Shown here one piece after another: positions 7,882-54,027 of a stretch of 64,000 nt of DNA. Below the pieces are notes generated by a model. That model saw nothing but the letters and a program-made list of their open reading frames with translations. It was not told the origin of the DNA and did not search any database. Each line of letters starts with the position of its first letter. Position 1 is the first letter of the stretch. Source of the stretch: Flavivirga abyssicola (GTDB lineage: Bacteria > Bacteroidota > Bacteroidia > Flavobacteriales > Flavobacteriaceae); contig NZ_CP141266.1 in the NCBI RefSeq assembly GCF_030540775.2, positions 151,501 to 215,500 on the forward strand, given 5' to 3'. Both the position numbers and the translations under genes were made by a program.

Positions 7882-8393
7882 TTGTAACAACAATTATGTT
7901 ATATGGGTTTTTAGACTAATAACAACCTCTTCACCCTTTATTTGGTTTGACAAACTAAAAACCCTGTTTCGTAAAATACTGGTTTGTATAACTGAATTCA
8001 TATGGGTTCATGTAATTCATATTTAAACTCTTTACAAATTACCTTTTATTAACAAGGCTTTTATTTCATAGCACTAAAATATCTTAATGAGTTCACCTTG
8101 ATACTCAAATTAAAATATTTTAATAAAAATCTTAAATAATTGCATTATTTATAATATTCATAAATAAAATTAGAAAATTTAATAGTAAAAAAAAATAACA
8201 TTTTGTTGTATTAATAAAATCATATGTCTTCCTGACTATATATAAAAATATTTAATTTCGTAAGGATTGACTTATATCAAAAGTAAGGCATTTACCTAAA
8301 AAAATTAATGCTTTTAACTTAACCTAAACCAAACTAAAAATCTTAGTTGAGAGACAACTAAGCTATTTTTTTAACCATTAAATTTTTATTATT
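7882..8393. other. Intergenic region, 512 bp, AT-rich
   Basis: There is no credible coding sequence here. It is very AT-rich and precedes a secreted-glycosidase gene. The only clear structure is the hairpin plus T-run at 8342-8372. I found no confident TAnnTTTG box with a matching -33 element. Confidence 0.6.
8342..8372 (+). terminator. Terminator-like hairpin in the leader of the DUF5060 gene
   Basis: CTTAGTTG (8342-8349) and CAACTAAG (8355-8362) form a perfect 8-bp stem with a 5-nt AGAGA loop. CTA and seven T follow (8366-8372). It ends 21 bp before the ATG at 8394. It may terminate an upstream leader transcript or act as an attenuator. Confidence 0.55.
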
Positions 8394-10865
8394 ATGATTA
8401 ATTTTGCCTCAATAACACGTTTGATGCTATTAGTAATCCTAATGACTATTATTCCCTTTTCGGGATATAGTCAAACCGTCAACGTAAATGGTACATCTCC
8501 CTACCGGAAATGGCACAAAATTGCTGTTTCGCTCACCCTACCTTCTAATGTAAGTGAATCTAACACAAGTTTTAAAAACAACCGCATGGATGTGGTTTTT
8601 ACAGACCCAAGCGGAAAAAAAATTAGAGTCCCTGGTTTTTTTGCTGCGGATGGTAATGCTGCAAATACCAATGCTGTATCTGGTAAGGTTTTTAAAGCAT
8701 ATCTAAGACCTTACGAAACAGGTCAATGGACTTATCGAGTACTTTACTATACAGGTACAGATGTTGCTTTAAAAAATGTGAATCAACTCCCTAGTCCAAC
8801 ACACAATTTAACGGGTTCTGTTGGAAATGTTACTGGAACAAACGCTACGCTTCCAGACCTAAGAGCAAAAGGACGTTTGGAATACCAAAAAACGGGTACT
8901 AACAATCAGCGCCGTTACCTAAGATGGGCTGAAACAGGAGAGTATTTCTTGAAGTTTGGCCCAGATTCGCCCGAGAATTTACTTAATTATAAAGACTTTG
9001 ATCATGATGTTAATAAAAATGGTTGTGGCAACTGTACAGAGCATTCATTCAATCCTCATACCAGTAACTGGCAATCTGGAAACCCTACTTGGGATGGACA
9101 AAAAGGCAAGAGTTTGATTGGTGTGGTTAACTATTTGAAAAACCAACAAATGAATTCAATGTCTATGTCGTTATTTGGTGGTGATGACAAAAATGTATTT
9201 CCTTGGACTAGCTTAAATAATAAGTTTAAATATGATGTTTCTAAACTTGAACAGTGGGAAATAGTTTTTGACCATGCAGAAAAAAGTGGCCTTGCTTTAC
9301 ATTTTAAATTAGCTGAAGCTGAAAACTGGAATAAATTAACACTAAACCAGATTAAAATATATTATCGTGAAATGGTAGCAAGATTTGGACATCATTTAGC
9401 CGTTGAATGGAATATTTCTGAAGAATATGGAGGTCAAGACACAAACAATACGGTTCAACCTAGTAGTGCTGTTCCTAGAATAAATTGGTTAGCTAGTATA
9501 GACCCTTGGCAAAACCATCGTGTTTTTCATACTTACCCTAATAAGCACGAAAAATATTATAATTACTTAATTAACAATAATGTTAAAATAACTGGTGCAT
9601 CTGTTCAAAGCTCCCAAGGTGGTGGGTATGATGATGCTTATGGTGGAAAATCCGGGATTAAAACCTGGGTTAACAAATCAAAAAATGGTGGAGTTCCATG
9701 GGTAGTAGCTAGTGATGAGCAAAACCCAGGTGCAACGGGTATGTTTACTTCTGAAGCCATTAATAATAGTAATGTTAAAGTTGAGGCAAGAAAAAAAATT
9801 CTATGGAAAGGTCTTATTGCCGGAGGAGGTGGTGTTATGTGGTACGGCGGAAAGAATGGCGATTTTAGAACTGAAAATTTTAATAGATTCAATACTCTAT
9901 TCAACTGGTCAAGAATTGCTATACTACAATTTTTCGAAGGCAATAACCTTGAATACTGGAAAATGCAAAACAATGATGCGCTGGCTAGCGGTAATAAAAA
10001 TAGATGTTTAGCTCAAGTAGGTAAAACTTATGTTATTTATCTTGAAAATGGTGGTTCATCAAATCTAAATCTTTCTGGACAATCAGGAAACTTTAATGTG
10101 AAGTGGTTTAACCCTAGAAATGGAGGGAACTTACAAAACGGATCTGTTACTTCTATAACTGGTGGCGGAAACAAGAGCATCGGAAACCCTCCTAATAATG
10201 TGAATTCAGACTGGGTAGCCTTAATTACGGCAGGATCATCTACAGGCCCTGTCACAGAATCAATAGGGTTCTCAAATCTTCCTGCTTCGTTTAGTAATCA
10301 AATTACCACTTTTCCAATTCAGGTAACCTATTCCGCTAATCAACAAAGGGATATTAATGTGACAATAAAAAGCCCAACGAATACCTATATTGCTCATAAA
10401 ACCATGACCGTAAGTGCTGGTTCTAACCAAACTACTACAGTTAATGTATCAGTATCAAGCGCATTAGCTACTGGCTCTAATTATAAGTTTGTAACTGCAT
10501 TACGAACGGTAGGCGGTAATTACTCTACGAACATTGATAAAGAAGTGGCATTTGCCAATATTGTAAATGCTTCAGCAAAATCATTAAAGGGAGAAGCAGA
10601 AAAGCCTGATGTATCGACTGCAGATAACACTAGTATAAAAGTTTATCCAATCCCTCTTGAAGGAAGGAACCTAAAAGCTGAATTAATAGGCGTAAAAGGA
10701 TCTGCTTCCTACATTATTACAGATATAAATGGTAGGTCTATTACATCTGGAACATCTGATGACAATATGATTACTATTCCTACTAGCTTATTAAAAGCTA
10801 AAGGTATTTATATCTTAAAAGTTGATGTTGATGGACATCAATTTATAAAGAAAATTGTGAAATAA
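8394..10865 (+). CDS. DUF5060 glycosidase-like protein, T9SS-sorted
   Basis: This 823-aa secreted protein has a signal peptide at 1-26 (FSGYSQ). An N-terminal beta-sandwich of the DUF5060 type follows (about 27-125), then a TIM-barrel-like region (about 150-505). A putative collagen-binding-type beta domain comes next (EYWKMQNND... WFNPRNGG, about 520-615), then another beta domain, and a T9SS type A sorting domain (about 748-823, VYPIPL... ending KKIVK). Candidate catalytic acids by position are E343/E344 in WNISEE and D441/E442 in ASDEQN. By homology class it probably cleaves a polysaccharide; the substrate cannot be read from the sequence. A larger paralogue is at 55538-59308. Confidence 0.85.
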   Translation: MINFASITRLMLLVILMTIIPFSGYSQTVNVNGTSPYRKWHKIAVSLTLPSNVSESNTSFKNNRMDVVFTDPSGKKIRVPGFFAADGNAANTNAVSGKVFKAYLRPYETGQWTYRVLYYTGTDVALKNVNQLPSPTHNLTGSVGNVTGTNATLPDLRAKGRLEYQKTGTNNQRRYLRWAETGEYFLKFGPDSPENLLNYKDFDHDVNKNGCGNCTEHSFNPHTSNWQSGNPTWDGQKGKSLIGVVNYLKNQQMNSMSMSLFGGDDKNVFPWTSLNNKFKYDVSKLEQWEIVFDHAEKSGLALHFKLAEAENWNKLTLNQIKIYYREMVARFGHHLAVEWNISEEYGGQDTNNTVQPSSAVPRINWLASIDPWQNHRVFHTYPNKHEKYYNYLINNNVKITGASVQSSQGGGYDDAYGGKSGIKTWVNKSKNGGVPWVVASDEQNPGATGMFTSEAINNSNVKVEARKKILWKGLIAGGGGVMWYGGKNGDFRTENFNRFNTLFNWSRIAILQFFEGNNLEYWKMQNNDALASGNKNRCLAQVGKTYVIYLENGGSSNLNLSGQSGNFNVKWFNPRNGGNLQNGSVTSITGGGNKSIGNPPNNVNSDWVALITAGSSTGPVTESIGFSNLPASFSNQITTFPIQVTYSANQQRDINVTIKSPTNTYIAHKTMTVSAGSNQTTTVNVSVSSALATGSNYKFVTALRTVGGNYSTNIDKEVAFANIVNASAKSLKGEAEKPDVSTADNTSIKVYPIPLEGRNLKAELIGVKGSASYIITDINGRSITSGTSDDNMITIPTSLLKAKGIYILKVDVDGHQFIKKIVK

Positions 10866-10896
10866 CAGACACTTAAAAAGATTTTTAAAGTAAAAA

Positions 10897-10935
10897 CCGA
10901 ATCTCCTAATAATAGAACAGGAGATTCGGCTTTGA
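10897..10935. terminator. Bidirectional terminator between DUF5060 gene and guaB
   Basis: CCGAATCTCCT (10897-10907) pairs perfectly with AGGAGATTCGG (10919-10929), an 11-bp stem with an 11-nt loop. The minus strand has TTTTTAC directly after the stem; the plus strand has a looser T-rich stretch. It lies between convergent genes. Confidence 0.85.
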
Positions 10936-10981
10936 AAACTTGATTTTGTTTTTTTATTGTATAAACAAGAAAAACATAAAA

Positions 10982-12454
10982 CTATCTAGAATAGTTAGGT
11001 GATTCTTTAGTAATGGTCACATCATGTGGATGGCTTTCATTAATACCACTTGCCGTGATTTTCACAAACTGACCATTTTCTTTTAATGTCTCAATATCTT
11101 TAGCACCACAATAGCCCATACCAGCACGTAATCCGCCTATAAACTGGTGAACGCTTTCGTATAGATCGCCTTTGTAAGGGACTCTCCCTACAATACCTTC
11201 TGGTACTAACTTTTTAATATCGTCTTCTACATCTTGGAAATAGCGATCTTTGCTACCTTGTTTCATAGCTTCTACAGACCCCATCCCTCGATAAGATTTA
11301 AACTTTCTTCCTTCGTAAATAATGGTTTCTCCTGGCGATTCTTTTGTTCCTGCTAATAGTGATCCCAACATAACCGTATCTGCACCTGCAGCAATCGCTT
11401 TTGGAATATCTCCTGTATAACGAATTCCTCCATCTGCTATTACTGGTACGCCAGTACCTTTAATAGCCGCAGCAACTTCTAAAACTGCAGAAAACTGTGG
11501 GAATCCTACACCAGCTACAACACGTGTTGTACAAATAGACCCTGGGCCAATACCAACTTTAACCGCATCGGCTCCTGCTTCTACTAAATATTTTGCAGCG
11601 GCTCCTGTAGCGATATTGCCAACAATAACTTCTAGTTCTGGAAACTTAGATTTAATTTCTTTTAGCACGCTAACTACTCCTTTTGTATGACCGTGTGCTG
11701 TATCAATTACAACAGCATCTACGCCTGCATTTACAAGGGCTTCTGCTCTATCTACAGCATCACCTGTAACTCCAATAGCTGCTGCAACACGTAAACGTCC
11801 GTACTGATCTTTATTCGCAATTGGTTTTTGACTAAGCTTGGTAATATCTCTAAAAGTAATTAAACCAGATAACTTATAAGCATCATCAACAATAAGTAAT
11901 TTTTCGATTTTATGTTTTTGAAGGATTTTTTCTGCATCTTTTAAAGATGTTCCAACGGCAGCAGTTACGAGGTTCTCACCTGTCATCACTTCTACAATAG
12001 GTCTTGAATTGTTATGTTCAAAACGTAAGTCACGATTGGTTACAATCCCTTTTAATACACCTGCTTCATCAACTATAGGAATCCCACCAATACCATGCTC
12101 GGCCATGTTTTGTTTGGCATCTTTAACATTAGCTGTAAGAGGCAACGTAACTGGATCTATAATCATACCACTTTCAGCTCGTTTTACCTTTCTTACTTTT
12201 AAAGCTTGCGCCTCAATAGTCATATTTTTGTGTAAAACACCAATACCGCCTTCTTGTGCCATAGCTATGGCCATTTTACTTTCGGTAACGGTATCCATCG
12301 CAGCCGAAATAATAGGCACATTAATAGTAATGTTTTGAGTAAATTTTGTTTGAATATCAACTTCGCGTGGAAGAACTTCAGAAAATGCTGGAACTAAAAG
12401 GACGTCATCGTAGGTTAATCCCTCCCCTACTATTTTATTTTGATGTGCAGTCAT
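10982..12454 (-). CDS. guaB: Inosine-5'-monophosphate dehydrogenase
   Basis: IMPDH oxidises IMP to XMP with NAD+, the committed step of GMP synthesis. The 490-aa length is standard. A CBS pair interrupts the TIM barrel at about 95-205. The catalytic loop [11 protein letters not shown] carries the nucleophile Cys308. The flap region [16 protein letters not shown] and the C-terminal substrate loop are present. A -7 box lies 26 bp upstream. The gene is transcribed alone and ends at a strong shared terminator. Confidence 0.98.
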
Positions 12455-44498: not shown

Positions 44499-45082
44499 AA
44501 AAATGCACTAACTTCAACAACATCTCCTACCTGCATCGAGTTAATATGAATAGTCCCTACTCGAACGCGTACCAAACGTAATGTAGGAAAGCCAACTGCC
44601 GAAGTCATTTTTCGCACCTGCCTAAACTTACCTTCATTTAAGATTATAGACACCCAAGATGTTGGGCCATGCCTATCATCCCTGATTTTTTGTGATCGCT
44701 TTGGTAAATCTGGAAGCTCATTTAATCTGGAAGCTTTACAGGGTCTGGTTTGATATTTTTTACCATCAAAACCAATTTCCACTCCTGCTTTTAATAGATT
44801 GATGGCTTCATCTGTAATAGTACCGTCTACCTGTGCATAATATTCTTTTTCTACTTTTTGACTATTAACAAAATCACTCGTTTTACCATCGGTAGTCAAT
44901 AATAATAATCCTTCTGATTTTTCATCTAATCTACCAATAGCCATGATTCCCTTAGGAAAATCATACAGTAGTCCTAAGAACTTTTTCGACTGCTGTTTTG
45001 AATCATGACTTTTAAACTGACTTAAATAACCATAGGGTTTATAAATTACAAAATGTCGATGCTCGCTTTTAGATACTTCCAT
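44495..45082 (-). CDS. 23S rRNA pseudouridine synthase (RluE/RsuA type)
   Basis: This 195-aa RsuA-family pseudouridine synthase lacks an S4 domain. The catalytic Asp53 lies in GRLDEKSEGLLLLTTDG. The C-terminal motif (NEGKFRQVRKMTSAVGFPTLRLVRVRVG) is typical of RluE-like enzymes that modify 23S rRNA. It overlaps the end of topB by 14 bp and so is translated from the same mRNA. Confidence 0.92.
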   Translation of the reverse strand: MEVSKSEHRHFVIYKPYGYLSQFKSHDSKQQSKKFLGLLYDFPKGIMAIGRLDEKSEGLLLLTTDGKTSDFVNSQKVEKEYYAQVDGTITDEAINLLKAGVEIGFDGKKYQTRPCKASRLNELPDLPKRSQKIRDDRHGPTSWVSIILNEGKFRQVRKMTSAVGFPTLRLVRVRVGTIHINSMQVGDVVEVSAFF

Positions 45083-47372
45083 TTAAAATACTGTGAACGA
45101 GTTCTTTGGTTGGTTTCTGTCCATTTATTTTAGCTCTTACGGCATCAAAAGTCATTTTAAAATCACATCCAGATTTATAATCACTGCACCCATATGCTGT
45201 ACTACCTTTAAGAACAGTTCCTTTTTTGCATTTTGGACAAGTTAATTCTTCTGGTTTTGTTTTCACCGAAGTATTTGAAGTCTTTTTGGGTTCTAATTTC
45301 AGATTAAAATGTTCATCAAAACGAAGCAAACCTTCTACTTTACCAGAATCTGTTTTAAAACCTTTTAAATTAACTGTAGACCCTTTTTGAAGCAATCTAA
45401 TATACTGTTTTTCAGAAATCTTTTTATCAGCATAACTAAAAGGGATCACAAAATGACACCCCGATTTGTACCCACTACAACCATAAGCTGTTTTTCCTTT
45501 TATAATATGTCCTTTTTTACATTTTGGACAGGTTTCTGCCGTAATACCTGCTGCTGCTTTTTTTACTGCCTTGGCTTCCCTATTTTTCACGGTTACGGCA
45601 TGAGATATATTAGCACGCTTTGTTTCGCTTCTCACCTCATATACCAGAGCATCCACCATACGTTTCATATTCTTTATAAACGCTCCTGCACTGAACGCTC
45701 CTTTTTCAATGTCTTTTAGTTGCTTTTCCCAAGACCCTGTGAGTTCTGCAGATTTTAATAAATTGTTTTGAATCGTATCTATAAGCTGCATCCCAGTAAC
45801 GGTAGGCAAGACCTGCTTTTTATTACGTTTTATATATTTTCTTTTAAAAAGGGTTTCAATAATATTGGCACGTGTTGACGGTCTTCCAATACCATTTTCT
45901 TTCATCAATTCACGCATATCTTCATCATCCACTTGCTTACCCGCTGTTTCCATAGCACGTAATAAAGAAGCCTCTGTAAATTGGTTAGGTGGTTTGGTTT
46001 CTTTTTCTAAAAACGAAGGTTCATGTGGACCTTTTTCTCCTTTAACAAACGATGGTAATAATTTATCCTTTGTCGTACTGGATGCAGTCGAAGTATCAAA
46101 AACGACACGCCACCCTTTCTCTAAAATCTCTTTTCCTGTTGTTTTAAAAGACACATCTGCAACCTTACCAATAACGGAAGTATTAGCCACCAAACAATCG
46201 TCATAAAAAACCGCTATAAAACGTTTTACTATAATATCGTAAACTTGTTGTTGGTTATATTGTAAATTAATCTGAATCCCTGTTGGGATGATAGCATGGT
46301 GATCGGTTACTTTTTTATCGTTAAAAACTTTGGCCGATTTCTTTATTTTTTTTCCTAAAAGTGGTTGTGTTAATTTTGAATAGTTTGTCAGCTTTTGAAG
46401 AATACCTGATACTTTTGGATATATATCGGTTGGTAAAAAAGTGGTATCTACTCTAGGGTACGTAACGACTTTTTGCTCATATAATTTCTGAACAATCTTT
46501 AAGGTTTCATCTGCCGAAAATCCAAACTTCGTATTACAATACACTTGCAATCCTGTTAAATCGAAAAGCTTTGGTGCATATTCCTTTCCTTTTTTCTTTG
46601 TAATAGATTCTATTTCAAAATCGCTCTCCTTTACTTTATTCGCTAGTGCCTCTCCATCTTCCTTTTTCAAAAAACGCCCCTCTTCGTAACTAAACAAAGT
46701 ATCCCGATACAAGGTCTGCAATTCCCAATATGGTTGGGGTTTAAAATTTTCAATCTCTTTAAATCGATTAACAACCATCGCCAATGTTGGAGTTTGTACC
46801 CGACCAACTGACAATACCTGCTTATAACCTCCATGTTTTACGGTGTACAATCTGGTAGCATTCATTCCAAGTAGCCAATCTCCAATAGCCCTGGAAAATC
46901 CCGCGTAATATAAATTGTCGTAATCTTCAGCAGGTTTTAAATTTTCAAACCCCTCTTTGATAGCCTCTGTCGTTAATGAAGAAATCCATAGACGTTTTAC
47001 TTCGCCTTTATAATTGGCTTCATTCATAACCCAACGCTGAATCAATTCACCTTCCTGACCTGCATCCCCACAATTTATAACCACATCTGCTTTATCAAAT
47101 AAACTTTTTACAATTTTAAATTGCTTTTGTATCCCTGAATTAGAAACAACTTTCGTTTCAAATTTTTCGGGCAACATGGGGAGGTTATTTAAATCCCAGC
47201 TTTTCCAATATGGTTTATAATCGTTGGGCTCTTTTAATGTACATAAATGTCCAAAAGTATAAGTCACTGCATAACCATTGCCTTCATAATAACCATCACG
47301 TTTAGAATTAGCTCCTAAAACAGAAGCTATTTCGCGTGCTACACTTGGTTTTTCGGCAATACAGACTTTCAC
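45069..47372 (-). CDS. topB: DNA topoisomerase III
   Basis: This 767-aa type IA topoisomerase begins with a Toprim domain (CIAEKPSVAREIA... NCGDAGQEGELI). The catalytic Tyr305 lies in VTYPRVDTTFLP. The C-terminus has two zinc-ribbon repeats (CPKCKKG...YGCSGYKSGC and CPKCKKG...YGCSDYKSGC). It starts at GTG. It decatenates DNA. In flavobacteria it is usually chromosomal, and here it is coupled to an rRNA pseudouridine synthase. Confidence 0.96.
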   Translation of the reverse strand: MKVCIAEKPSVAREIASVLGANSKRDGYYEGNGYAVTYTFGHLCTLKEPNDYKPYWKSWDLNNLPMLPEKFETKVVSNSGIQKQFKIVKSLFDKADVVINCGDAGQEGELIQRWVMNEANYKGEVKRLWISSLTTEAIKEGFENLKPAEDYDNLYYAGFSRAIGDWLLGMNATRLYTVKHGGYKQVLSVGRVQTPTLAMVVNRFKEIENFKPQPYWELQTLYRDTLFSYEEGRFLKKEDGEALANKVKESDFEIESITKKKGKEYAPKLFDLTGLQVYCNTKFGFSADETLKIVQKLYEQKVVTYPRVDTTFLPTDIYPKVSGILQKLTNYSKLTQPLLGKKIKKSAKVFNDKKVTDHHAIIPTGIQINLQYNQQQVYDIIVKRFIAVFYDDCLVANTSVIGKVADVSFKTTGKEILEKGWRVVFDTSTASSTTKDKLLPSFVKGEKGPHEPSFLEKETKPPNQFTEASLLRAMETAGKQVDDEDMRELMKENGIGRPSTRANIIETLFKRKYIKRNKKQVLPTVTGMQLIDTIQNNLLKSAELTGSWEKQLKDIEKGAFSAGAFIKNMKRMVDALVYEVRSETKRANISHAVTVKNREAKAVKKAAAGITAETCPKCKKGHIIKGKTAYGCSGYKSGCHFVIPFSYADKKISEKQYIRLLQKGSTVNLKGFKTDSGKVEGLLRFDEHFNLKLEPKKTSNTSVKTKPEELTCPKCKKGTVLKGSTAYGCSDYKSGCDFKMTFDAVRAKINGQKPTKELVHSILNGSI

Positions 47373-47561
47373 TTATCCTTTTTTTAATTTTAAATTATGA
47401 TGTGCAAAATAGGAATTTTGACCTGATTTTTGAAGTGGAGTTATCAGGAGTTATTAACGATAGGCTTGCCACCATTTTATTAAAAATAAGAAATGAAATA
47501 CAAGTTCTCAGGCAATTTTCTTAGTTTCTCTACAAATTAATGAAAAAGCGCCTTTTCAAGA

Positions 47562-47675
47562 ATGAAAAAATCTGTTTATGTCATAATACTACTATGCTTC
47601 AATATATATTATAGTTTCGGTCAGATAAGTATTGGAACAACTTTACACTTCAAAAAGTTAACCATTACATTATGA
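47562..47675 (+). pseudogene. Remnant of a secreted or outer-membrane protein gene
   Basis: An ATG at 47562 opens 37 codons that read as a typical flavobacterial signal peptide (KKSVYVIILLCFNIYYSFGQ). They continue ISIGTTLHFKKL and then hit TGA. The segment after the signal peptide resembles the first strand of a small beta barrel. No continuation is visible downstream. It looks like the 5' stub of a gene lost when the accessory island arrived, though a chance frame cannot be excluded. Confidence 0.4.
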
Positions 47676-47739
47676 ATCTAGGTTTAAAAAAAATTATACA
47701 TATGAATCAAAAAAATTTGCATTATGAACGTAGGTTCAT
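47668..47739. promoter_or_regulatory. Repeated operator-like site before the DUF134 gene
   Basis: CATTATGAATCTAGGTTT (47668-47685) and CATTATGAACGTAGGTTC (47720-47737) are direct repeats with three differences, set 52 bp apart, about five helical turns. The second contains ATGAAC-GTAG-GTTCAT (47724-47739), a perfect 6-bp inverted repeat. A half site, ATGAATCA, lies between them at 47702. It is probably the binding site of the DUF134 regulator. Confidence 0.6.
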
Positions 47740-47779
47740 TATATTTACTGAGATAAAAAAACACTTAAAAAACTAATAA

Positions 47780-48187
47780 ATGCCACGTCCAAAAAAGAAA
47801 AGAAAAGTTAATAATCCACCGAAAATGCACGGCTTTAAACCATTTGGAATTGCATTTTGTGACACAGAGCATATTATCATACAATATGACGAATATGAAA
47901 CGATTAAATTAGTTATTTATGATGATCTTCAGCAAGATGTAGCAGCAGATCGGATGGAGGTTTCACGACCTACACTTACTAGGGTTTACAATAGTGCTTT
48001 AAAAAAAATAGCGCAGGCGTTTGTGGAAGGTAAATCAATTTTAATCAAAGGTGGCAATTTCGAGTTTGAAAAAGATTGGTATAAGTGCAAAAGATGTTTT
48101 AAACTAATTGCAGGTATTGAAAATCACACAAAATGTGGTGATTGCCCTGCTTATAACATAGGTGAATTAGTAAATTTAAATGAATAA
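47780..48187 (+). CDS. DUF134-family DNA-binding protein
   Basis: This 135-aa protein has the DUF134 layout: a basic MPRPKKKRK start, a sigma-4-like HTH in the middle (YDDLQQDVAADRMEVSRPTLTRVYNSALKKIAQAF) and a C-terminal CxxC pair (CKRCF, CGDCP) that may bind a metal or Fe-S cluster. It is the first gene of the island's upstream unit. It lies 3 bp before DUF5320 and probably regulates the unit through the repeated site at 47668-47739. Confidence 0.92.
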   Translation: MPRPKKKRKVNNPPKMHGFKPFGIAFCDTEHIIIQYDEYETIKLVIYDDLQQDVAADRMEVSRPTLTRVYNSALKKIAQAFVEGKSILIKGGNFEFEKDWYKCKRCFKLIAGIENHTKCGDCPAYNIGELVNLNE

Positions 48188-48190
48188 GTT

Positions 48191-48370
48191 ATGCCAAATT
48201 TAGATCATAAGGGTCCTGAAAATTTAGGCCCAAAAACCGGAATGAAATTGGGGAAATGTAGAAAGACAAAATCGGATAACATTGAATACCCTGAACACAG
48301 ACCTTTTGGAAAAAGGAGACGAAAAAAATTAAATTACGACAAGATAACACGATTTAATTTCAAAAGATGA
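48191..48370 (+). CDS. DUF5320-family small protein (59 aa)
   Basis: This short gene encodes 59 aa with the DUF5320 pattern. It has a Gly/Pro-rich start (MPNLDHKGPENLGPKTGMKLGKC) and a very basic C-terminus (GKRRRKKLNYDK). The stop overlaps the next start as ATGA (48367-48370), so it is translationally coupled to the NifX-like gene. In anaerobes such proteins are typically next to DUF134 and dinitrogenase iron-molybdenum cofactor proteins, as here. Confidence 0.85.
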   Translation: MPNLDHKGPENLGPKTGMKLGKCRKTKSDNIEYPEHRPFGKRRRKKLNYDKITRFNFKR

Positions 48371-48756
48371 AAAAAATAGCTGTACCAATAACAAGAAATA
48401 ATCAGATAGAAGAACATTTTGGGCATTGTGAGTTTTATGAAATTTATACTTTTTCTAATACTAACGAAGTTTTAGATGTACAATTATTAAAGTCAGAGCA
48501 AGGTTGTGTATGTAAATCAAATTTTATCAGTCTTTTAGAAAATGAAGGTGTAACATTGATGCTTTCTGATGGCATTGGCAATAACGCAATTAATAAATTA
48601 AATAATGCTGGTATTGAAATAATACGAGGTTGTTCAGGTAGTTCTGCAGAGGTGATCTTACAATTTATTGAAGGAGAAATTTCTGATAGTGATATAAGTT
48701 GTTTAAAGCATGCTCAACATCATGGAGATGGACATAACCATGTATGTGATCATTAG
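48367..48756 (+). CDS. NifX/NifB-type iron-molybdenum cofactor-binding protein
   Basis: This 129-aa protein is of the dinitrogenase Fe-Mo cofactor biosynthesis family. It has MKKIAVPITRNNQIEEHFGHCEFYEIY at the start and IGNNAINKLNNAGIEIIRGCSG in the middle. The C-terminus is rich in His and Cys (CLKHAQHHGDGHNHVCDH), suited to metal binding. No nitrogenase genes are near, so the role is probably metal-cluster handling of another kind. It forms an operon with DUF134 and DUF5320. Confidence 0.9.
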   Translation: MKKIAVPITRNNQIEEHFGHCEFYEIYTFSNTNEVLDVQLLKSEQGCVCKSNFISLLENEGVTLMLSDGIGNNAINKLNNAGIEIIRGCSGSSAEVILQFIEGEISDSDISCLKHAQHHGDGHNHVCDH

Positions 48757-48974
48757 CCTAAACTCACAGAAAATATGAGTGTTTCTTTTAACTACATTTT
48801 TAAGTTATTTTATTTGAATTCATTCATGAAATCAGAGGCAACATTAACAAAAATTCTATTAGTCTATAATGCTTGTAAACTAAAATATACTTACAAAACA
48901 ACGTTTACTCCTTCTAATAAAATTAAATACTTAGTACAGTTTTGAGTTAAATACGAGTAAATAAAACTTAGATA

Positions 48975-49610
48975 ATGAATGACAGAGGCACAAATATTTT
49001 GCAAGGAGAAAGGGTTAAACTTCCAACCCAATATGGTCACTTTGAGCTTATTCCATTTCAAGAGAAATTAAATGGACTTGAACATATGGCACTGATTAAA
49101 GGAAACTTGACATCAAATGATACCATTCTAACACGAATTCACTCTGCTTGTGCAACTGGAGATTTATTTGGCTCATTAAAATGCGATTGCGGAGAACAAT
49201 TAATTCAAGCTATGAAAATAATTGAGAACAACGGAAATGGAATAATCGTGTATTTGCAACAAGAAGGCAGGGGAATTGGTCTTATGAATAAAATGAAGGC
49301 TTATAAACTGCAAGAACATGGCATGGACACAATAGAAGCTAACTTACACTTAGGGTTTGCCCCAGATGAGAGGGAATATCAAATAGGAGCCGAAATTCTT
49401 ATTTCTCTTGGTGTAAAGAAAGTGAAATTACTGACTAATAACCCTGAGAAAATTCTTGGATTGGAACAAAACGGAATTCAAGTTGATGAACGTATTCCTC
49501 TAATAGTACAATCAAACCCATTTAACATAGAGTACTTAGACACAAAAAGAAATCGTATGGGTCACCAGTTAAATGAAGAAAAAATGAAAATTCAATATTA
49601 TGATAACTGA
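48975..49610 (+). CDS. ribA: GTP cyclohydrolase II
   Basis: It converts GTP to 2,5-diamino-6-ribosylamino-4-pyrimidinone 5'-phosphate. The zinc cysteines Cys59, Cys70 and Cys72 (CATGDLFGSLKCDC) keep the spacing of E. coli RibA. The catalytic segment YLQQEGRGIGL is intact. It is a stand-alone cyclohydrolase without the RibB domain and is not next to rib genes. It heads a five-gene run whose other members are not riboflavin enzymes, so it may supply a different pathway. I see no FMN riboswitch upstream. Confidence 0.95.
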   Translation: MNDRGTNILQGERVKLPTQYGHFELIPFQEKLNGLEHMALIKGNLTSNDTILTRIHSACATGDLFGSLKCDCGEQLIQAMKIIENNGNGIIVYLQQEGRGIGLMNKMKAYKLQEHGMDTIEANLHLGFAPDEREYQIGAEILISLGVKKVKLLTNNPEKILGLEQNGIQVDERIPLIVQSNPFNIEYLDTKRNRMGHQLNEEKMKIQYYDN

Positions 49611-50019
49611 CATATTTGAATTAAGACCCCGATATGGAGAAGTAGACCAAATGGGATATGTGTATCATGCCAATTACGTTACATATTGCCACCAGTCTCG
49701 TACTGAGTTATTACGCAAATTAGGGATAAACGATAGTAAACTTGAAAAGAACCATATCATGTTACCAGTAATTTCGTTTGAAATTATTTATAAAAAGCCT
49801 GCTCATTACGATGAACTTATTACAATACAAACAACTATTAAGGAATTACCAAAGGTTCGCTTTAATTTCGAATTTGAAATAAAAAATGAACAAAACACGC
49901 TTTTAAGCAAAGCAAAATCAACTGTTGTTTTTGTAGATAGTCAGTCACGTTTGCCAATTAACATACCTTATTTTGTTGAGAATGCACTTAAACCTCATTT
50001 TAAAAGTGTTTGTGTATGA
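49600..50019 (+). CDS. Acyl-CoA thioesterase (hotdog, YbgC-like)
   Basis: This 139-aa hotdog-fold thioesterase of the 4-hydroxybenzoyl-CoA/YbgC type has the active-site motif VDQMGYVYHANYVTYCHQSRTELLRKLG, with Asp16 and YHANY. The closing strand is LLSKAKSTVVFVD. It overlaps ribA by 11 bp and the next gene by 4 bp, so the three are co-translated. It would hydrolyse an acyl- or aryl-thioester; its substrate in this cluster is unknown. Confidence 0.9.
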   Translation: MITDIFELRPRYGEVDQMGYVYHANYVTYCHQSRTELLRKLGINDSKLEKNHIMLPVISFEIIYKKPAHYDELITIQTTIKELPKVRFNFEFEIKNEQNTLLSKAKSTVVFVDSQSRLPINIPYFVENALKPHFKSVCV

Positions 50020-50798
50020 AATTAATTGTACTTACTGAAAATTGCGCAGGATCCGGTTTTTTTGCAGAACATGGACTATCTTATATAATTGAATATAAAG
50101 ATGATAAGATTTTGTTCGACACAGGACACTCAGATATCTTTATTAAAAACGCCAAAATACTTGGTATTGATATCCAAAAAGAAATTAACACGGTTATTCT
50201 TAGCCATGGCCATTGGGATCATGGAAATGGGCTACAATATATTGATAATAAAACTTTAATTACCCATCCAGGTGTTTTTATTAAACGGTTCAGAAAGAAT
50301 GATAATTCAAATATTGGACTAAAACTAAGCAAAAACGATTTTGAGCAAAAGTTTAAGTTGATTCTCAAAAAAGAACCTTATTATATTTCAGACAATATTG
50401 TTTTTCTGGGACAAATACCCAGGCTAAATGATTATGAGTCAAAAACAACTCTTTTTTTAGATGAATTAGGCAAGCCTGATTTTGTAATTGATGATTCGGC
50501 AATTGCTGTTATTCAGAATAACGAGCTCATAGTAATTACTGGATGCTCTCACTCGGGCGTTTGTAACATTATTGAATATGCCCGCAAAGTAACAGGTATC
50601 AACAAAATAAAAACTGTAATTGGTGGTTTTCATTTAAAGCACAAAAACCGCCAAACTAAGGATACTGTAAATTTTCTGAAAAAATACGACATAGCGAAAA
50701 TTTATCCATCGCATTGTACCGAATTCCCTGCTCTTGTTGCTTTTTATGAACATTTTAATATCGAACAATTAAAAACAGGAATGATTTTAAATTTCTAA
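50016..50798 (+). CDS. COG1237-type metallo-beta-lactamase-fold protein
   Basis: This roughly 260-aa protein has the metal motif SHGHWDHGNGL, further ligand regions (TGCSHSGVCNIIEYA, IGGFHLKH) and the C-terminal PSHCTEFPAL. These are the marks of the COG1237 group related to archaeal dihydropterin-ribofuranosylaminobenzene phosphate synthase. The ATG at 50016 overlaps the thioesterase stop (ATGA). The family is common in anaerobes and archaea. Next to a GTP cyclohydrolase it suggests pterin- or pyrimidine-type chemistry; this is inference. Confidence 0.88.
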   Translation: MKLIVLTENCAGSGFFAEHGLSYIIEYKDDKILFDTGHSDIFIKNAKILGIDIQKEINTVILSHGHWDHGNGLQYIDNKTLITHPGVFIKRFRKNDNSNIGLKLSKNDFEQKFKLILKKEPYYISDNIVFLGQIPRLNDYESKTTLFLDELGKPDFVIDDSAIAVIQNNELIVITGCSHSGVCNIIEYARKVTGINKIKTVIGGFHLKHKNRQTKDTVNFLKKYDIAKIYPSHCTEFPALVAFYEHFNIEQLKTGMILNF

Positions 50799-50799
50799 A

Positions 50800-51015
50800 A
50801 TGCTATCTAATCAAATAATCACAAACTCCATTAGAATAATTCACACACTTTTTGATGATCTTAAAAGCATACCTATTAACAATAAAAACTTTAAAGAACA
50901 TGGCGGAAAAAGATATACAAGTCATGAAATAAATCATGTTTTTAATGAAACAGAATTGGTAGGTTTGCATGTTTGTATAAAATCTAATGTTAAAAGAAGA
51001 ACAAAGTTTATTTAG
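50800..51015 (+). CDS. Small protein of unknown function (71 aa)
   Basis: It starts 1 bp after the stop of the MBL gene, and the frame is in a tight run of co-directional genes. The protein is polar with a His/Glu-containing centre (HGGKRYTSHEINHVFNETE) and a basic tail (SNVKRRTKF). It has no signal peptide, and I recognise no family. It could be a small accessory subunit or carrier-like protein. It might also be the decayed start of a larger gene. Confidence 0.55.
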   Translation: MLSNQIITNSIRIIHTLFDDLKSIPINNKNFKEHGGKRYTSHEINHVFNETELVGLHVCIKSNVKRRTKFI

Positions 51016-51060
51016 CTTTTATAAAAGAGGAAGCTCTGATTAATTATAATTAAAATATTT

Positions 51061-53136
51061 ATGAAAACAAGCAATATACTTATTGAAAATCAATACAATA
51101 GAACCCGTTTATTTGAAAAAGAAAACCTGAATTATCTGGTTAGAGTTTTAAAAAGATTTAATACTGCACCTAAGATAAACAGCATAAATATTACCACTTC
51201 TGACACTGAGCCCGATGTATTTAAAATTGTTCCTGAAAAAGCAATTAAAATTGGTTCACTATTTTTAGAAAAACCTGTTTTAGCATTAATCTATTTAAGA
51301 TATGGTATTGAATGGCAACTTTGGCATAAAGCTTTAGGTAAAGAAAAATCCAATACTCTTTTATGCGATCTGGCTGCTCTTAAAGTTACTCAAATATTTT
51401 ATGATTTATTACCCAAAAAAGATAAAGAAAAATTAAAAAATCTTGATTATTTTTTAATTGATCTGATTAAAAAAAATGAAGATTTAAACACAGAATCTTT
51501 ATTAAAATATAAAGAACTACAATCTTTTCATGGATTAAACAATTCAAACAACATATTTAAAGAATCCTGGAAACCAATTCTTGAAAACCTGGCAAAACCA
51601 ACAGAATATTTATTAATGGCTGGTGGTGATCTTAGACTGAATATCGACGAATTTGAATTGTTGAATAAATATGGTTGCCGACCATTTCCAAGACCAGAAG
51701 CATTTACTTTTGCCTCATCAACAGCGACTAGTGTATCAAATTTTGCTTTTGATAAAACAGACAAAATTAGATCGATATTAATTCAGAACAGCTTAAAAAA
51801 AGGTTTTAAAAACACAACTATCGAATTTTCAGAATCGTTAAAAAACAATCTTAGAAAAATCTTTAACATAAATGATGGATGTCAAATAATTTTTTCTCCA
51901 TCGGGTACGGATTCAGCTCTTCAAATAGCAGCTATTAATCAAATTATTTCCGATAAAGAAATTACACATATTTTGGTAGCTTCTGATGAAACTGGTAGTG
52001 GTATTCCTGCAGCATTAAAAGGGCAACATTTTGAAAATACTACTGCTTTGAATTATCCGATTAAAAAAGGGGATAAAATTGAAGGGTTTAGAGATGTTGA
52101 CTTGATCAAAATTCCTCTAAGGGATGAAAATGGCGAATTAAAATCATCGTTTCAATTAGATACAGAGGTTTTTAATGCCATTTCAGAAACTAATGAATTA
52201 GGGAGACATATTGTATTGCATGCCATGGATCAATCAAAATTAGGATATCAATCACCTAGTGAAGAAATGATGCAAAAATTGGATACACTTAACAATTTAT
52301 CAATACAAATTATTGTAGACGGATCACAACTTAGATTAGATCCAAAAGACATACAAAATTATTTGAATAAAGAATATATGGTTACTATAACCGGAAGTAA
52401 ATACTTTACAGGCCCTCCCTATTCAGGCGCATTAATTGTGCCTGAAAATGTTAGTAAATCAATTAATTCTGTAAAAAACACTTTACCAAAAGGTTTAACC
52501 AATTATTACAATCATTCAGATTGGCCAACATCGTGGTTCTGTTCTAAAGATTTATCCGATGGATATAATTATGGCTCATACATGCGCTGGAATGCTGCTA
52601 TAACTGAAATGGACAGGTATTACAAAACACCTGTTTTATATAGAAATTTAGGAATTGAGATGTTTTGCAATTTTGTTGAAGACTCTATTAAAGATTCCAC
52701 TTTTTTAGAACCACTTTTTGGAAATGAAACAAAAATTAATACTTATAACAGTGAAGAATTCGGACTTAGAAATATTCGAACCATTTTCCCTTTTTTTATC
52801 CTCAAAAACAATAATGTATTACCTCTTAATGATGTAAAGAAACTCTATACATTATTGAATTCAGATATATCTGATCAATTCGAAGGATCTTCTTTAGAAA
52901 TCATTAGACTTGCTGCTCAAAAATGTCATATAGGACAAGCAGTTAATGTAAAATATGGTAATGATTTTCAAAGTGCTGTGTTAAGAATTAGTTTGGGCGC
53001 AAGGGTTATTTCCGAAAGTTGGGTAAACAGAGATATTAGCATCTATTTTAGAAATATAGAAACACAAATGAATCAGATCACTGTAATTATGAAAAAAATA
53101 GAATTGATCCTCAGTAATTCTGAATTGTTGAATTAA
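51061..53136 (+). CDS. PLP-fold enzyme with unrecognised N-terminal domain (691 aa)
   Basis: Residues ~205-690 form an aminotransferase class V-like PLP fold. A phosphate-binding loop reads FSPSGTDSALQ (about 280-290). Asp420 in VDGSQLR would contact the pyridine nitrogen. Lys447 in TGSKYFTGPPYSG is the probable Schiff-base lysine; the 27-residue Asp-Lys spacing is as in cysteine desulfurases. The first ~200 residues are helical (FLEKPVLALIYLRYGIEWQLWHKALG) and match nothing I know. Cysteine desulfurases are ~400 aa, so this is an unusual fusion. It is the last gene of the island. Confidence 0.75.
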   Translation: MKTSNILIENQYNRTRLFEKENLNYLVRVLKRFNTAPKINSINITTSDTEPDVFKIVPEKAIKIGSLFLEKPVLALIYLRYGIEWQLWHKALGKEKSNTLLCDLAALKVTQIFYDLLPKKDKEKLKNLDYFLIDLIKKNEDLNTESLLKYKELQSFHGLNNSNNIFKESWKPILENLAKPTEYLLMAGGDLRLNIDEFELLNKYGCRPFPRPEAFTFASSTATSVSNFAFDKTDKIRSILIQNSLKKGFKNTTIEFSESLKNNLRKIFNINDGCQIIFSPSGTDSALQIAAINQIISDKEITHILVASDETGSGIPAALKGQHFENTTALNYPIKKGDKIEGFRDVDLIKIPLRDENGELKSSFQLDTEVFNAISETNELGRHIVLHAMDQSKLGYQSPSEEMMQKLDTLNNLSIQIIVDGSQLRLDPKDIQNYLNKEYMVTITGSKYFTGPPYSGALIVPENVSKSINSVKNTLPKGLTNYYNHSDWPTSWFCSKDLSDGYNYGSYMRWNAAITEMDRYYKTPVLYRNLGIEMFCNFVEDSIKDSTFLEPLFGNETKINTYNSEEFGLRNIRTIFPFFILKNNNVLPLNDVKKLYTLLNSDISDQFEGSSLEIIRLAAQKCHIGQAVNVKYGNDFQSAVLRISLGARVISESWVNRDISIYFRNIETQMNQITVIMKKIELILSNSELLN

Positions 53137-53229
53137 ATAATGAGATTCAATATCTATGCACACTGGAAATACCTTGCATTTTTTCAATTATTTCTGCATA
53201 AATTTCTATGGTATGTTTCTTCAGAAGGG

Positions 53230-54027
53230 TTACCACTCACGCTTTTTATTAAGCTCTTCGAGGGCTTCTAATTCTTTTTGAGGAATCACTTTTAAGAAAG
53301 AAGGATGCTGTTCGATAGCATATTCAATTTTTTTAACAATCTCGTCTGTAGATTCATTATCGTAATCTATTTCCAAAGGCGCTTTAATTTCAAAAGATTG
53401 TAAAATGTTTTTCTTTTTAATACGCAATCCTTTTTTATCGAAAGAACGTCTAAACCCATCAATAACTATAGGTATTACAATAGGTTTATATCGTTTAATA
53501 ATATGGGCTGTTCCTTTTCTAATAGGTTTAAATGGGGTTGTTGTCCCCTGTGGAAAGGTTATAACCCAACCATCATCTAATGCTTTACCAATGTTTGAAA
53601 TATCACTCATCTTAACCTGTCTGTTCACATCTTGTCCTTCTGATCTCCAAGTACGTTCAATACTAATAGAGCCTACATAAGCTAATATTTTTGGCAGCAG
53701 TCCTGCTTTCATGGTTTCTTTGGCAGCGACATAATAAATATTCAACTTAGGATTCCACAAGTATCCAACATTTTTAATAGAGTCTTCTCGGCCACTTAAA
53801 CTAGCATTAAAGACGTGAAACATGGATACCACATCTGCAAAGTATGTTTGATGATTCGAAATAAATAATACATTCGTATCAGGTAATGTTTTTATAATAT
53901 CAGAACCTTCTATTTGTAATTCATTAAACCCTCTAAAGCGCCTATGAGTCATTGCACCCAGAATTCTTATGAGCCATTTTTTTACAATTAGTATATGTCC
54001 GAATGGATTTCTTTTAAACAATCCCAT
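53230..54027 (-). CDS. 1-acyl-sn-glycerol-3-phosphate acyltransferase-like protein
   Basis: This 265-aa PlsC-family phospholipid acyltransferase has motif I as SNHQTYFADV, with five residues between His and Asp rather than the usual four. Motif III is FPQGTTTPFKPIRKGT, with Gln in place of the usual Glu of FPEGT. It has a hydrophobic segment near the N-terminus. It probably works at the inner membrane in phospholipid or ornithine-lipid synthesis. It is on the same strand as the Nudix gene. Confidence 0.85.
   Translation of the reverse strand: MGLFKRNPFGHILIVKKWLIRILGAMTHRRFRGFNELQIEGSDIIKTLPDTNVLFISNHQTYFADVVSMFHVFNASLSGREDSIKNVGYLWNPKLNIYYVAAKETMKAGLLPKILAYVGSISIERTWRSEGQDVNRQVKMSDISNIGKALDDGWVITFPQGTTTPFKPIRKGTAHIIKRYKPIVIPIVIDGFRRSFDKKGLRIKKKNILQSFEIKAPLEIDYDNESTDEIVKKIEYAIEQHPSFLKVIPQKELEALEELNKKREW

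Follow-up and report, generated by a model that had tools for sequence, protein, structure and literature searches.

What is the run of plus-strand genes between topB and an acyltransferase gene on the chromosome of Flavivirga abyssicola, and do its members belong together? The run lies in a 64,000-nt stretch (the window; NCBI RefSeq assembly GCF_030540775.2, contig NZ_CP141266.1, positions 151,501 to 215,500), in whose own numbering all coordinates are given here. It comprises seven genes and one gene remnant, encoding in order a predicted DNA-binding DUF134 protein, a small DUF5320 protein, a NifX-like protein, a GTP cyclohydrolase II (RibA), an acyl-CoA thioesterase (TE), a metallo-beta-lactamase-fold (MBL) hydrolase, a remnant of a TrmO-type protein, and a 691-aa protein read as a pyridoxal 5'-phosphate (PLP) enzyme. 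With moderate confidence, we interpret the run as a mobile cassette in which a PLP enzyme that makes a precursor is joined by an accessory operon under regulation of its own, autorepressed by DUF134. The island would be one copy of a cassette passed among flavobacteria, with the PLP enzyme as its lasting part. The accessory operon ahead of it, led by DUF134 and contributing a NifX-like metal-cluster protein, RibA, TE, MBL, and TrmO, has lost genes repeatedly. Gene order, erosion, tree conflict, palindrome, and the decarboxylase coupling of distant homologues were read from sequence, and the PLP fold from a structural model. A bolder version, which we put forward only tentatively, is that the PLP protein founds a new two-lysine family with an undescribed amino-acid reaction whose product goes to a decarboxylase or a non-ribosomal peptide synthetase (NRPS), and that the flavobacterial cassette is under a metal- or redox-sensing DUF134 autorepressor.

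Gene order and erosion of the cassette

In a species-level scan (one genome per species), relatives of the PLP protein turned up at 63 loci (loci carry L numbers and genomes G numbers). Upstream cassette genes were sought by tblastn (E ≤ 0.01, same strand, at most 6.5 kb upstream of the PLP gene) with queries from the window and five loci (L004, L014, L025, L029, L031), which therefore partly matched themselves. At least one upstream gene or fragment was found in 34 of the 63 loci; in L009, L044, and L056, which start less than 1500 b away from the end of a contig, genes could be concealed. Some query open reading frames (ORFs) fuse DUF134 or NifX with DUF5320, and the DUF134 match of L007 and the NifX matches of L007, L011, and L048 were really DUF5320. 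After correction, DUF134 was present in 22 loci (one fragment, L020) and NifX in 11 (uncorrected 23 and 14), alongside RibA in 13, DUF5320, TE, and TrmO in 12 each, and MBL in seven. Fragments, with a best match covering less than 70% of the query, accounted for seven of the TrmO, three of the MBL, one of the RibA, and two of the DUF5320 matches.

The upstream order was constant across the 63 loci, the sole exception being a swap of NifX and DUF5320 in L014 and L059. This constancy points to descent from one cassette, with a probable ancestral order of DUF134-DUF5320-NifX-RibA-thioesterase-MBL-TrmO-PLP enzyme. In seven loci a TrmO fragment alone stood ahead of the PLP gene, indicating that such otherwise bare loci are derived from the cassette. 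By sequence comparison, the 71-aa ORF of the window is likewise what remains of the 5' part of a TrmO-type gene: it shared 14 identical residues out of 26 with the 164-aa TrmO of L003 (tblastn), and 164-aa TrmO ORFs occupy its place in L003, L004, L007, and L029. The Pfam search run for L003 assigned the 164-aa gene beside PLP to TrmO (PF01980, 133.7 bits); the 71-aa ORF had no Pfam match and no complete TrmO_N domain. The cassette also offers an example of a small element that erodes once transferred and whose intermediate stages survive in many species.

The sequence-only reading, made from the letters of this DNA, had treated the eight genes as one set composed of a DUF134/DUF5320/NifX half and a RibA-to-PLP half. 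Comparison supported neither an obligate set nor the division: all seven upstream genes were matched only in L003 and L004 (the MBL gene of L003 being split into two ORFs) and none in 29 of the 63 loci, and DUF134, RibA, and TE stay together without an adjoining PLP gene in L117 and L122. That reading had named frequent separation of the halves as a finding that would speak against it; separation was indeed frequent, but the remaining genes kept their order. Operons without an adjoining PLP gene had the orders DUF134-DUF5320-NifX-RibA-TE (L117), DUF134-small ORF-NifX (L118), DUF134-MBL-NifX (L119), DUF134-NifX-MinD-like ATPase-TE-MBL (L121), and DUF134-105-aa ORF-RibA-384-aa membrane-type protein-TE-MBL (L122), the MinD-like and membrane-type proteins being named by sequence reading; in L120, DUF134 lay on a 5-kb contig. 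From this content, RibA, TE, and MBL accompany DUF134 at least as readily as they accompany PLP, and the natural parts look like a stretch from DUF134 to TrmO and the PLP gene by itself.

It is conceivable, although we lean against it, that operon and PLP gene are unrelated and became linked only by once landing together; the PLP-free operons of L117, L119, L121, and L122 and the 29 PLP loci without an operon would fit this. What tells against it is that three of the six genomes in which DUF134 is not beside PLP carry the PLP gene elsewhere (G383, G183, G195), where 0.3 would be expected (p=0.002, genomes treated as independent, and G195 being a diverged DUF134); the other three (G165, G287, G192) have no PLP gene. 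Among 397 Flavobacteriaceae-level genomes, DUF134 exceeded the cut-off in 12 and the PLP gene was present in 19, and nine of the 12 DUF134 genomes, including that of the window, had both (hypergeometric p=3e-11, genomes again treated as independent). DUF134, rare in the family, was commoner in a phylum-wide sample, with 61 of 228 genomes, mostly from one other family; this distribution speaks neither for nor against the anaerobe-type label given in the sequence-only reading. Under the cassette reading, the accessory genes and the PLP enzyme would share a pathway.

With the MBL protein as query, four of the 395 genomes searched across the class gave a match at E ≤ 1e-20, including that of the window; the MBLs of the other three were 29–33% identical, and their surroundings held a single further cassette relative at E ≤ 1e-3, a thioesterase match of 34% in L213. 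Two metagenome-assembled genomes labelled Lentimicrobium and Cloacimonadota (L034 and L056) carried PLP proteins 78 and 64% identical to that of the window, respectively, for which misbinning is possible.

DUF134 and its predicted operator

Upstream of DUF134 lies a conserved palindrome with the consensus ATGAAC-N4-GTTCAT, which we predict to be the DUF134 operator. With at most two mismatches, it was present within 260 b upstream of DUF134 in 20 of 22 cases (the window and 21 loci) vs. 1.5% of shuffles. In L002 and L029 an exact palindrome lay slightly farther upstream, giving a total of 22 of 22 DUF134 loci at no more than one mismatch. Where the DUF134 ORF was missing, 2 of 42 loci had a palindrome with at most one mismatch no farther than 1.2 kb from PLP, and an exact copy persisted 2.2 kb upstream in L007, from which DUF134 is gone. 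The exact palindrome occurs once in this 4.68-Mb genome, at the DUF134 site. Among 15 genomes searched, eight had the exact pattern, one site each, and in six of these it was the DUF134 site (G000, G025, G202, G369, G370, G383); the backward control pattern had one match, in G008. G339, the seventh DUF134 genome among the 15, had no exact site; L050, on a contig of the same length, had one with a mismatch.

Downstream of the palindrome, a TAnnTTTG box, which we take to be the consensus of the Bacteroidota -7 element, was found in 18 of 26 sites vs. 2.3% of shuffled sequences; the window, where the probable box has the form TAnnTTTA, was not among the 18. The operons apart from PLP were similar, with the palindrome in L117, L118, and L119 and a poorer look-alike in L120. 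In L121 and L122 that promoter position was instead occupied by a pair of ATGAGAATATTCTCAT-type palindromes, with one copy in L122 imperfect at an end as judged by eye, and in the alignment the helix-turn-helix residues of their DUF134 proteins differed from the others.

The probable role of DUF134 is to repress the promoter of its own gene through binding to the palindrome, and the accessory operon would be regulated separately from the PLP enzyme. The four cysteines of the C-terminal CxxC...CxxC, retained in nearly all flavobacterial DUF134 proteins and altered in L014 and L059, may act as a metal or redox switch; binder, repression, and signal are all predictions. If they are true, the DUF134 family gains a DNA operator and a function; at the predicted level, one of its branches gains an operator in the form of a 16-bp palindrome with one exact site in this genome. 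In literature searches on DUF134/DUF5320, UPF0251/COG1342, ORP, riboflavin genes, and PLP, confined to one library, no DUF134 operator and no such cassette came up.

The 691-aa PLP enzyme and its genomic partners

The 691-aa protein reached no Pfam cut-off and had no NCBIfam match. A sequence search for a solved relative returned nothing below E 0.05 (the best in one search was a cysteine desulfurase, E 0.84), and no match emerged when hhalign was run with an alignment of two group II decarboxylase rows. The AlphaFold model, built with 47 sequences, had a predicted local distance difference test score (pLDDT) of 79.8 and a predicted template-modelling score of 0.81. Foldseek matches in the PDB at E ≤ 0.001 numbered 671, of which a tryptophan decarboxylase ranked best (1.1e-10), with SufS/NifS also high. 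Among the 50 matches listed, which we take to be PLP enzymes, in part from their titles, template-modelling scores were 0.43–0.63 by target and 0.31–0.38 by query. The residues D420, Q423, R425, K447, and S392-K393-x-G395 were invariant in the 14 rows of alignment A4, down to 21% identity. Based on the model, the Foldseek matches, and the invariant D420, Q423, and K447, the best reading is a fold-type-I PLP enzyme from a family without Pfam or NCBIfam match, in which K447 is the probable PLP lysine.

The modelled fold is that of fold-type-I enzymes of the class V and group II decarboxylase kinds (SufS, NifS, AADC-like), with which the protein also has the Asp-x-x-Gln and PLP-lysine pattern in common. 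Unlike these enzymes, the 691-aa protein has no sequence-family match, two invariant lysines, and a ~190-aa N-terminal domain; a GSG stretch presumably occupies their usual stacking-His position. Residues 1–190 (51061–51630), modelled alone, had a pLDDT of 73.5, and their best Foldseek match, a minigluzincin (selecase), was rejected as not significant (E 0.46). Ratios of nonsynonymous to synonymous substitution (dN/dS) for the PLP gene were 0.05–0.15 in seven pairs, one with saturated dS, and indicate that it is under purifying selection.

Phylum-wide, homologues were found in 15 of 395 genomes, seven of them distant, which together with G083 and G072 gave nine distant loci. In all nine of these most distant same-phylum homologues, a decarboxylase gene was adjacent or fused. 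It was of the ornithine/diaminopimelate (Orn/DAP) type in L130, L169, L173, L174, and L175 (Pfam) and in L072 (by clustering with the L073/L130 gene), and a group II decarboxylase beside the homologue in L171 and L172 and fused to it in L170; LysA scores of the three Orn/DAP-type enzymes tested were below the cut-off. The L170 fusion is a 1214-aa protein (7655–11299 in the numbering of L170) that joins a PLP-family member to the group II decarboxylase. No decarboxylase was recognised beside the flavobacterial PLP form. The plasmid homologues, 33 records in total, were all rhizobial (26–27% identity among the 20 listed), and in three of the four loci opened the PLP gene lay directly behind an NRPS gene (L202, L203, L205; a 4-b overlap twice and a 27-b gap once), the fourth (L204) having D-aminopeptidase and D-alanine aminotransferase genes beside it. 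In a more divergent flavobacterial branch, an M19 membrane dipeptidase gene adjoined PLP in 6 of the 63 loci (L049, L051, L052, L054, L056, L060; Pfam run for L049). Polysaccharide clusters were a further setting of distant homologues; other neighbours were an ATP-grasp gene directly 3' of PLP within a sugar/sulfotransferase-type cluster (L127) and a UDP-sugar dehydrogenase-like gene, named by sequence reading (L129).

The decarboxylase, NRPS, and dipeptidase neighbours suggest a precursor enzyme, and the most likely function of the PLP enzyme is synthesis or rearrangement of an uncommon amino acid that serves as precursor for a small molecule. A comparable link, with PLP enzyme and decarboxylase coupled or fused, is that of the 2,4-diaminobutyrate aminotransferase-decarboxylase pairs; here the PLP family is a different one and no decarboxylase lies beside the window copy. 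A PLP family without Pfam or NCBIfam match thereby gains recurring partners (decarboxylase, NRPS) in distant bacteria, and with DUF134 two unnamed protein families become testable objects.

An alternative that we consider improbable is metal-sulfur cluster assembly of the orange-protein (ORP) type, in which the NifX-like protein would carry the cluster, the PLP enzyme would donate sulfur as a cysteine desulfurase, and DUF134 would regulate. The ORP operon/MrpORP of Desulfovibrio has a dinitrogenase iron-molybdenum-cofactor-type domain in common with the cassette, and ORP is described as sigma54-controlled (PMC6345978). The NifX-like domain matched the C-terminal part of MrpORP with 51.7 bits (below the cut-off of 450), a MinD-like ATPase follows NifX in L121, SufS/NifS were among the Foldseek matches, and Cys622 was invariant in the 47 rows of alignment A1 (47 of 73 loci) and present in 8 of the 14 A4 rows, four rhizobial ones included. 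However, Cys622 was missing in the other six (L169, L171, L173, L072, L073, L174), 29 of the 63 PLP loci lack any cassette gene upstream, and neither an Mrp-type ATPase nor an Mrp/NBP35 P-loop ATPase was found among the cassette ORFs, which unlike the ORP operon include RibA, TE, MBL, TrmO, and the PLP enzyme. We also think it unlikely that the enzyme is an amino-acid racemase or epimerase and its family a D-amino-acid module. LysA-like decarboxylases act on a D-centre, and the LysA-like neighbours, the M19 dipeptidases, the D-amino-acid genes of L204, and the NRPS genes would suit such a module. Group II decarboxylases, which are usually L-specific, are nevertheless the partners in three of the nine distant loci, and the racemase assignment is drawn from sequence context.

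Insertion site, lateral transfer and riboflavin genes

The acyltransferase regions of ten other Flavivirga genomes (G001–G007, G009–G011; loci L142–L151) served for comparison of the site. All ten had a ~380-aa secreted-protein gene near the acyltransferase gene, in one to three copies, of which one in L149 and a 198-aa one in L148 look shortened; in all eight loci extending to topB it lay between topB and the acyltransferase gene. DNA homology between the window and these loci stopped at 47640–47642 in ten out of ten (blastn), at codon 27 of the resident gene, whose stump in the window matched L146/L142 at 67–70% over 27 aa (tblastn). The cassette thus interrupts a resident secreted-protein gene in this chromosome, with its left junction at 47641 ± 1 (edge about 47642). 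Position 47562, where the sequence-only reading had started its island, consequently belongs to the stump of the interrupted gene. Its block of plus-strand genes between minus-strand topB and acyltransferase genes holds for seven ORFs, the eighth being the TrmO remnant. The right-edge DNA was shared with F. rizhaonensis only, besides one weak 36-b match in L143. F. rizhaonensis (G008), the eleventh other Flavivirga genome, has the same insertion, with an 86-aa ORF (an MBL fragment plus a piece resembling the TrmO remnant of the window) and a PLP gene 96% identical to that of the window; its match to the left edge stops earlier and the stump is lost. Overall, the PLP gene was present in 4 of 12 Flavivirga genomes (G000, G003, G007, G008), at three different sites.

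PLP and RpoB were compared for 25 of 27 genomes, leaving out G299, in which RpoB was not found, and G378, whose RpoB was partial; the approximately unbiased (AU) tests additionally excluded two long rows, G032 and G065. The window PLP protein was 82% identical to that of G035 and 70% to that of G339, vs. 84 and 96.5% for RpoB, respectively. Thirteen genomes united in the RpoB tree (99% in the SH-like approximate likelihood ratio test) were split in the PLP tree by a 100/100 branch. In the AU tests, each clade was rejected on the data of the other gene, that of RpoB on PLP at p=1.55e-10 and that of PLP on RpoB at p=1.5e-188. Lateral exchange among flavobacteria is supported by this conflict, by the interrupted resident gene, and by the three Flavivirga sites. 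Horizontal acquisition, deduced earlier from family distribution and gene orientation, is thereby strengthened, and the comparison of gene trees with a species tree, suggested at the same time, came out in its favour for the PLP gene set against RpoB.

Several observations weigh against a mobile cassette with an autorepressed operon and a precursor enzyme. Among the cassette ORFs there was no integrase, in the window no tRNA that could serve as a target, and between the two edges no exact repeat of at least 8 b, so that the hallmarks of an integrative element are missing. Codon usage, the remaining check put forward with the sequence-only reading, deviated only weakly from neighbouring genes: the pooled island lay slightly above every one of 47 neighbouring runs and single genes were mostly in range, and composition was judged too weak to argue for transfer. 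The clades for the AU tests were chosen after the trees had been inspected, and PLP and RpoB identities still correlate (rank rho 0.51 over 300 pairs). Since the PLP gene served as query for each of the 63 loci, its retention is partly a matter of ascertainment; the PLP gene is in two ORFs in L044, and it adjoins DUF134 in only 6 of the 12 DUF134 genomes. Two of the eight exact palindromes (G008, G005) are not at DUF134, and at up to two mismatches the palindrome was absent near 29 of 30 further DUF134 genes of the phylum, the sole match being ATGAACATAAGTTCAA in L268, 33 b ahead of the start. Three intermediate homologues (43–47% identity; L127, L128, L129) had no decarboxylase among their visible neighbours, L128 ending at the PLP gene.

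Vertical inheritance of the PLP gene with frequent loss and no transfer would account for the rank correlation, for the agreement of PLP dS (0.12, G000–G008) with RpoB dS (0.155) within Flavivirga, and for the clustering of the Flavobacterium-type rows G507–G763 in both trees, but is already disfavoured, and in our view very improbable, given the strongly supported cross-genus conflict with AU rejection, the interrupted resident gene, and the three sites in one genus.

Table 1. Features of the cassette and its borders, in window coordinates.
Feature	Coordinates	Strand	Basis or remark
topB	45069–47372	minus	left flank; name taken from the sequence-only reading
Resident ~380-aa secreted-protein gene, 5' stump	47562–47641	plus	27 codons, signal-peptide region; outside cassette
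Palindrome ATGAACGTAGGTTCAT, predicted DUF134 operator	47724–47739		conserved upstream of DUF134
Probable -7 promoter box TATATTTA	47740–47747	plus	window form TAnnTTTA
DUF134 predicted DNA-binding protein, C-terminal CxxC...CxxC	47780–48187	plus	Pfam PF02001, 85.4 bits (cut-off 27)
DUF5320 small protein	48191–48370	plus	PF17253, 28.8 bits (cut-off 27)
NifX/ORP-like Nitro_FeMo-Co domain protein, His/Cys-rich tail	48367–48756	plus	PF02579, 61.1 bits (cut-off 26.3)
GTP cyclohydrolase II (RibA)	48975–49610	plus	TIGR00505, 249 bits (cut-off 205.85)
YbgC/FadM-type hotdog acyl-CoA thioesterase (TE)	49600–50019	plus	TIGR00051, 104.8 bits (cut-off 68.7)
MBL-fold hydrolase, 260 aa	50016–50798	plus	PF00753, 43.3 bits (cut-off 22.7)
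TrmO-type gene remnant (71-aa ORF)	50800–51015	plus	tblastn to 164-aa TrmO of L003
Predicted 691-aa fold-type-I PLP enzyme	51061–53136	plus	AlphaFold, Foldseek, alignments
Right edge	53137–53229		homology to other Flavivirga site loci returns at 53230, the acyltransferase stop codon
Acyltransferase	53230–54027	minus	right flank

Pfam domains over the cut-off in the cassette were DUF134, DUF5320, Nitro_FeMo-Co, GTP_cyclohydro2, 4HBT_2, and Lactamase_B, and NCBIfam families over the cut-off were RibA and the YbgC/FadM thioesterase. The tight packing described earlier for the second half was confirmed, with overlaps of 11 b between RibA and TE and 4 b between TE and MBL; DUF5320 and NifX also overlap by 4 b. 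An Rfam scan of 47300–53300 and a phage search gave no match. PADLOC, run on six cassette proteins (DUF5320 not included) and two homologues, gave no convincing anti-phage defence match, seven of the eight proteins being without any and DUF134 having one weak partial match (E 0.0013). The topB–acyltransferase region is variable across Flavivirga, and L143 and L150 also carry genes for a BKACE-like protein (named by sequence reading) and for proteins of 213/222 aa.

In searches of this genome, only the cassette RibA scored above the cut-off for GTP cyclohydrolase II. It is full-length and retains C59, C70, and C72, which we assume to be the zinc ligands. It differs from an ordinary GTP cyclohydrolase II in being part of an accessory cassette; in the host RibBA, the second (RibA) half is degenerate and lacks the zinc-type cysteines. 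Of 30 other genomes of the family, 28 had no RibA over the cut-off, and in the remaining two (G370, G383) it was a cassette copy. All three cysteines were absent from each of the 29 RibBA rows (L224, L227–L254; G000 and 28 family genomes, G370 and G383 not included). These searches leave the first riboflavin-precursor step of the family unexplained; a two-enzyme alternative exists elsewhere (PMC9478397).

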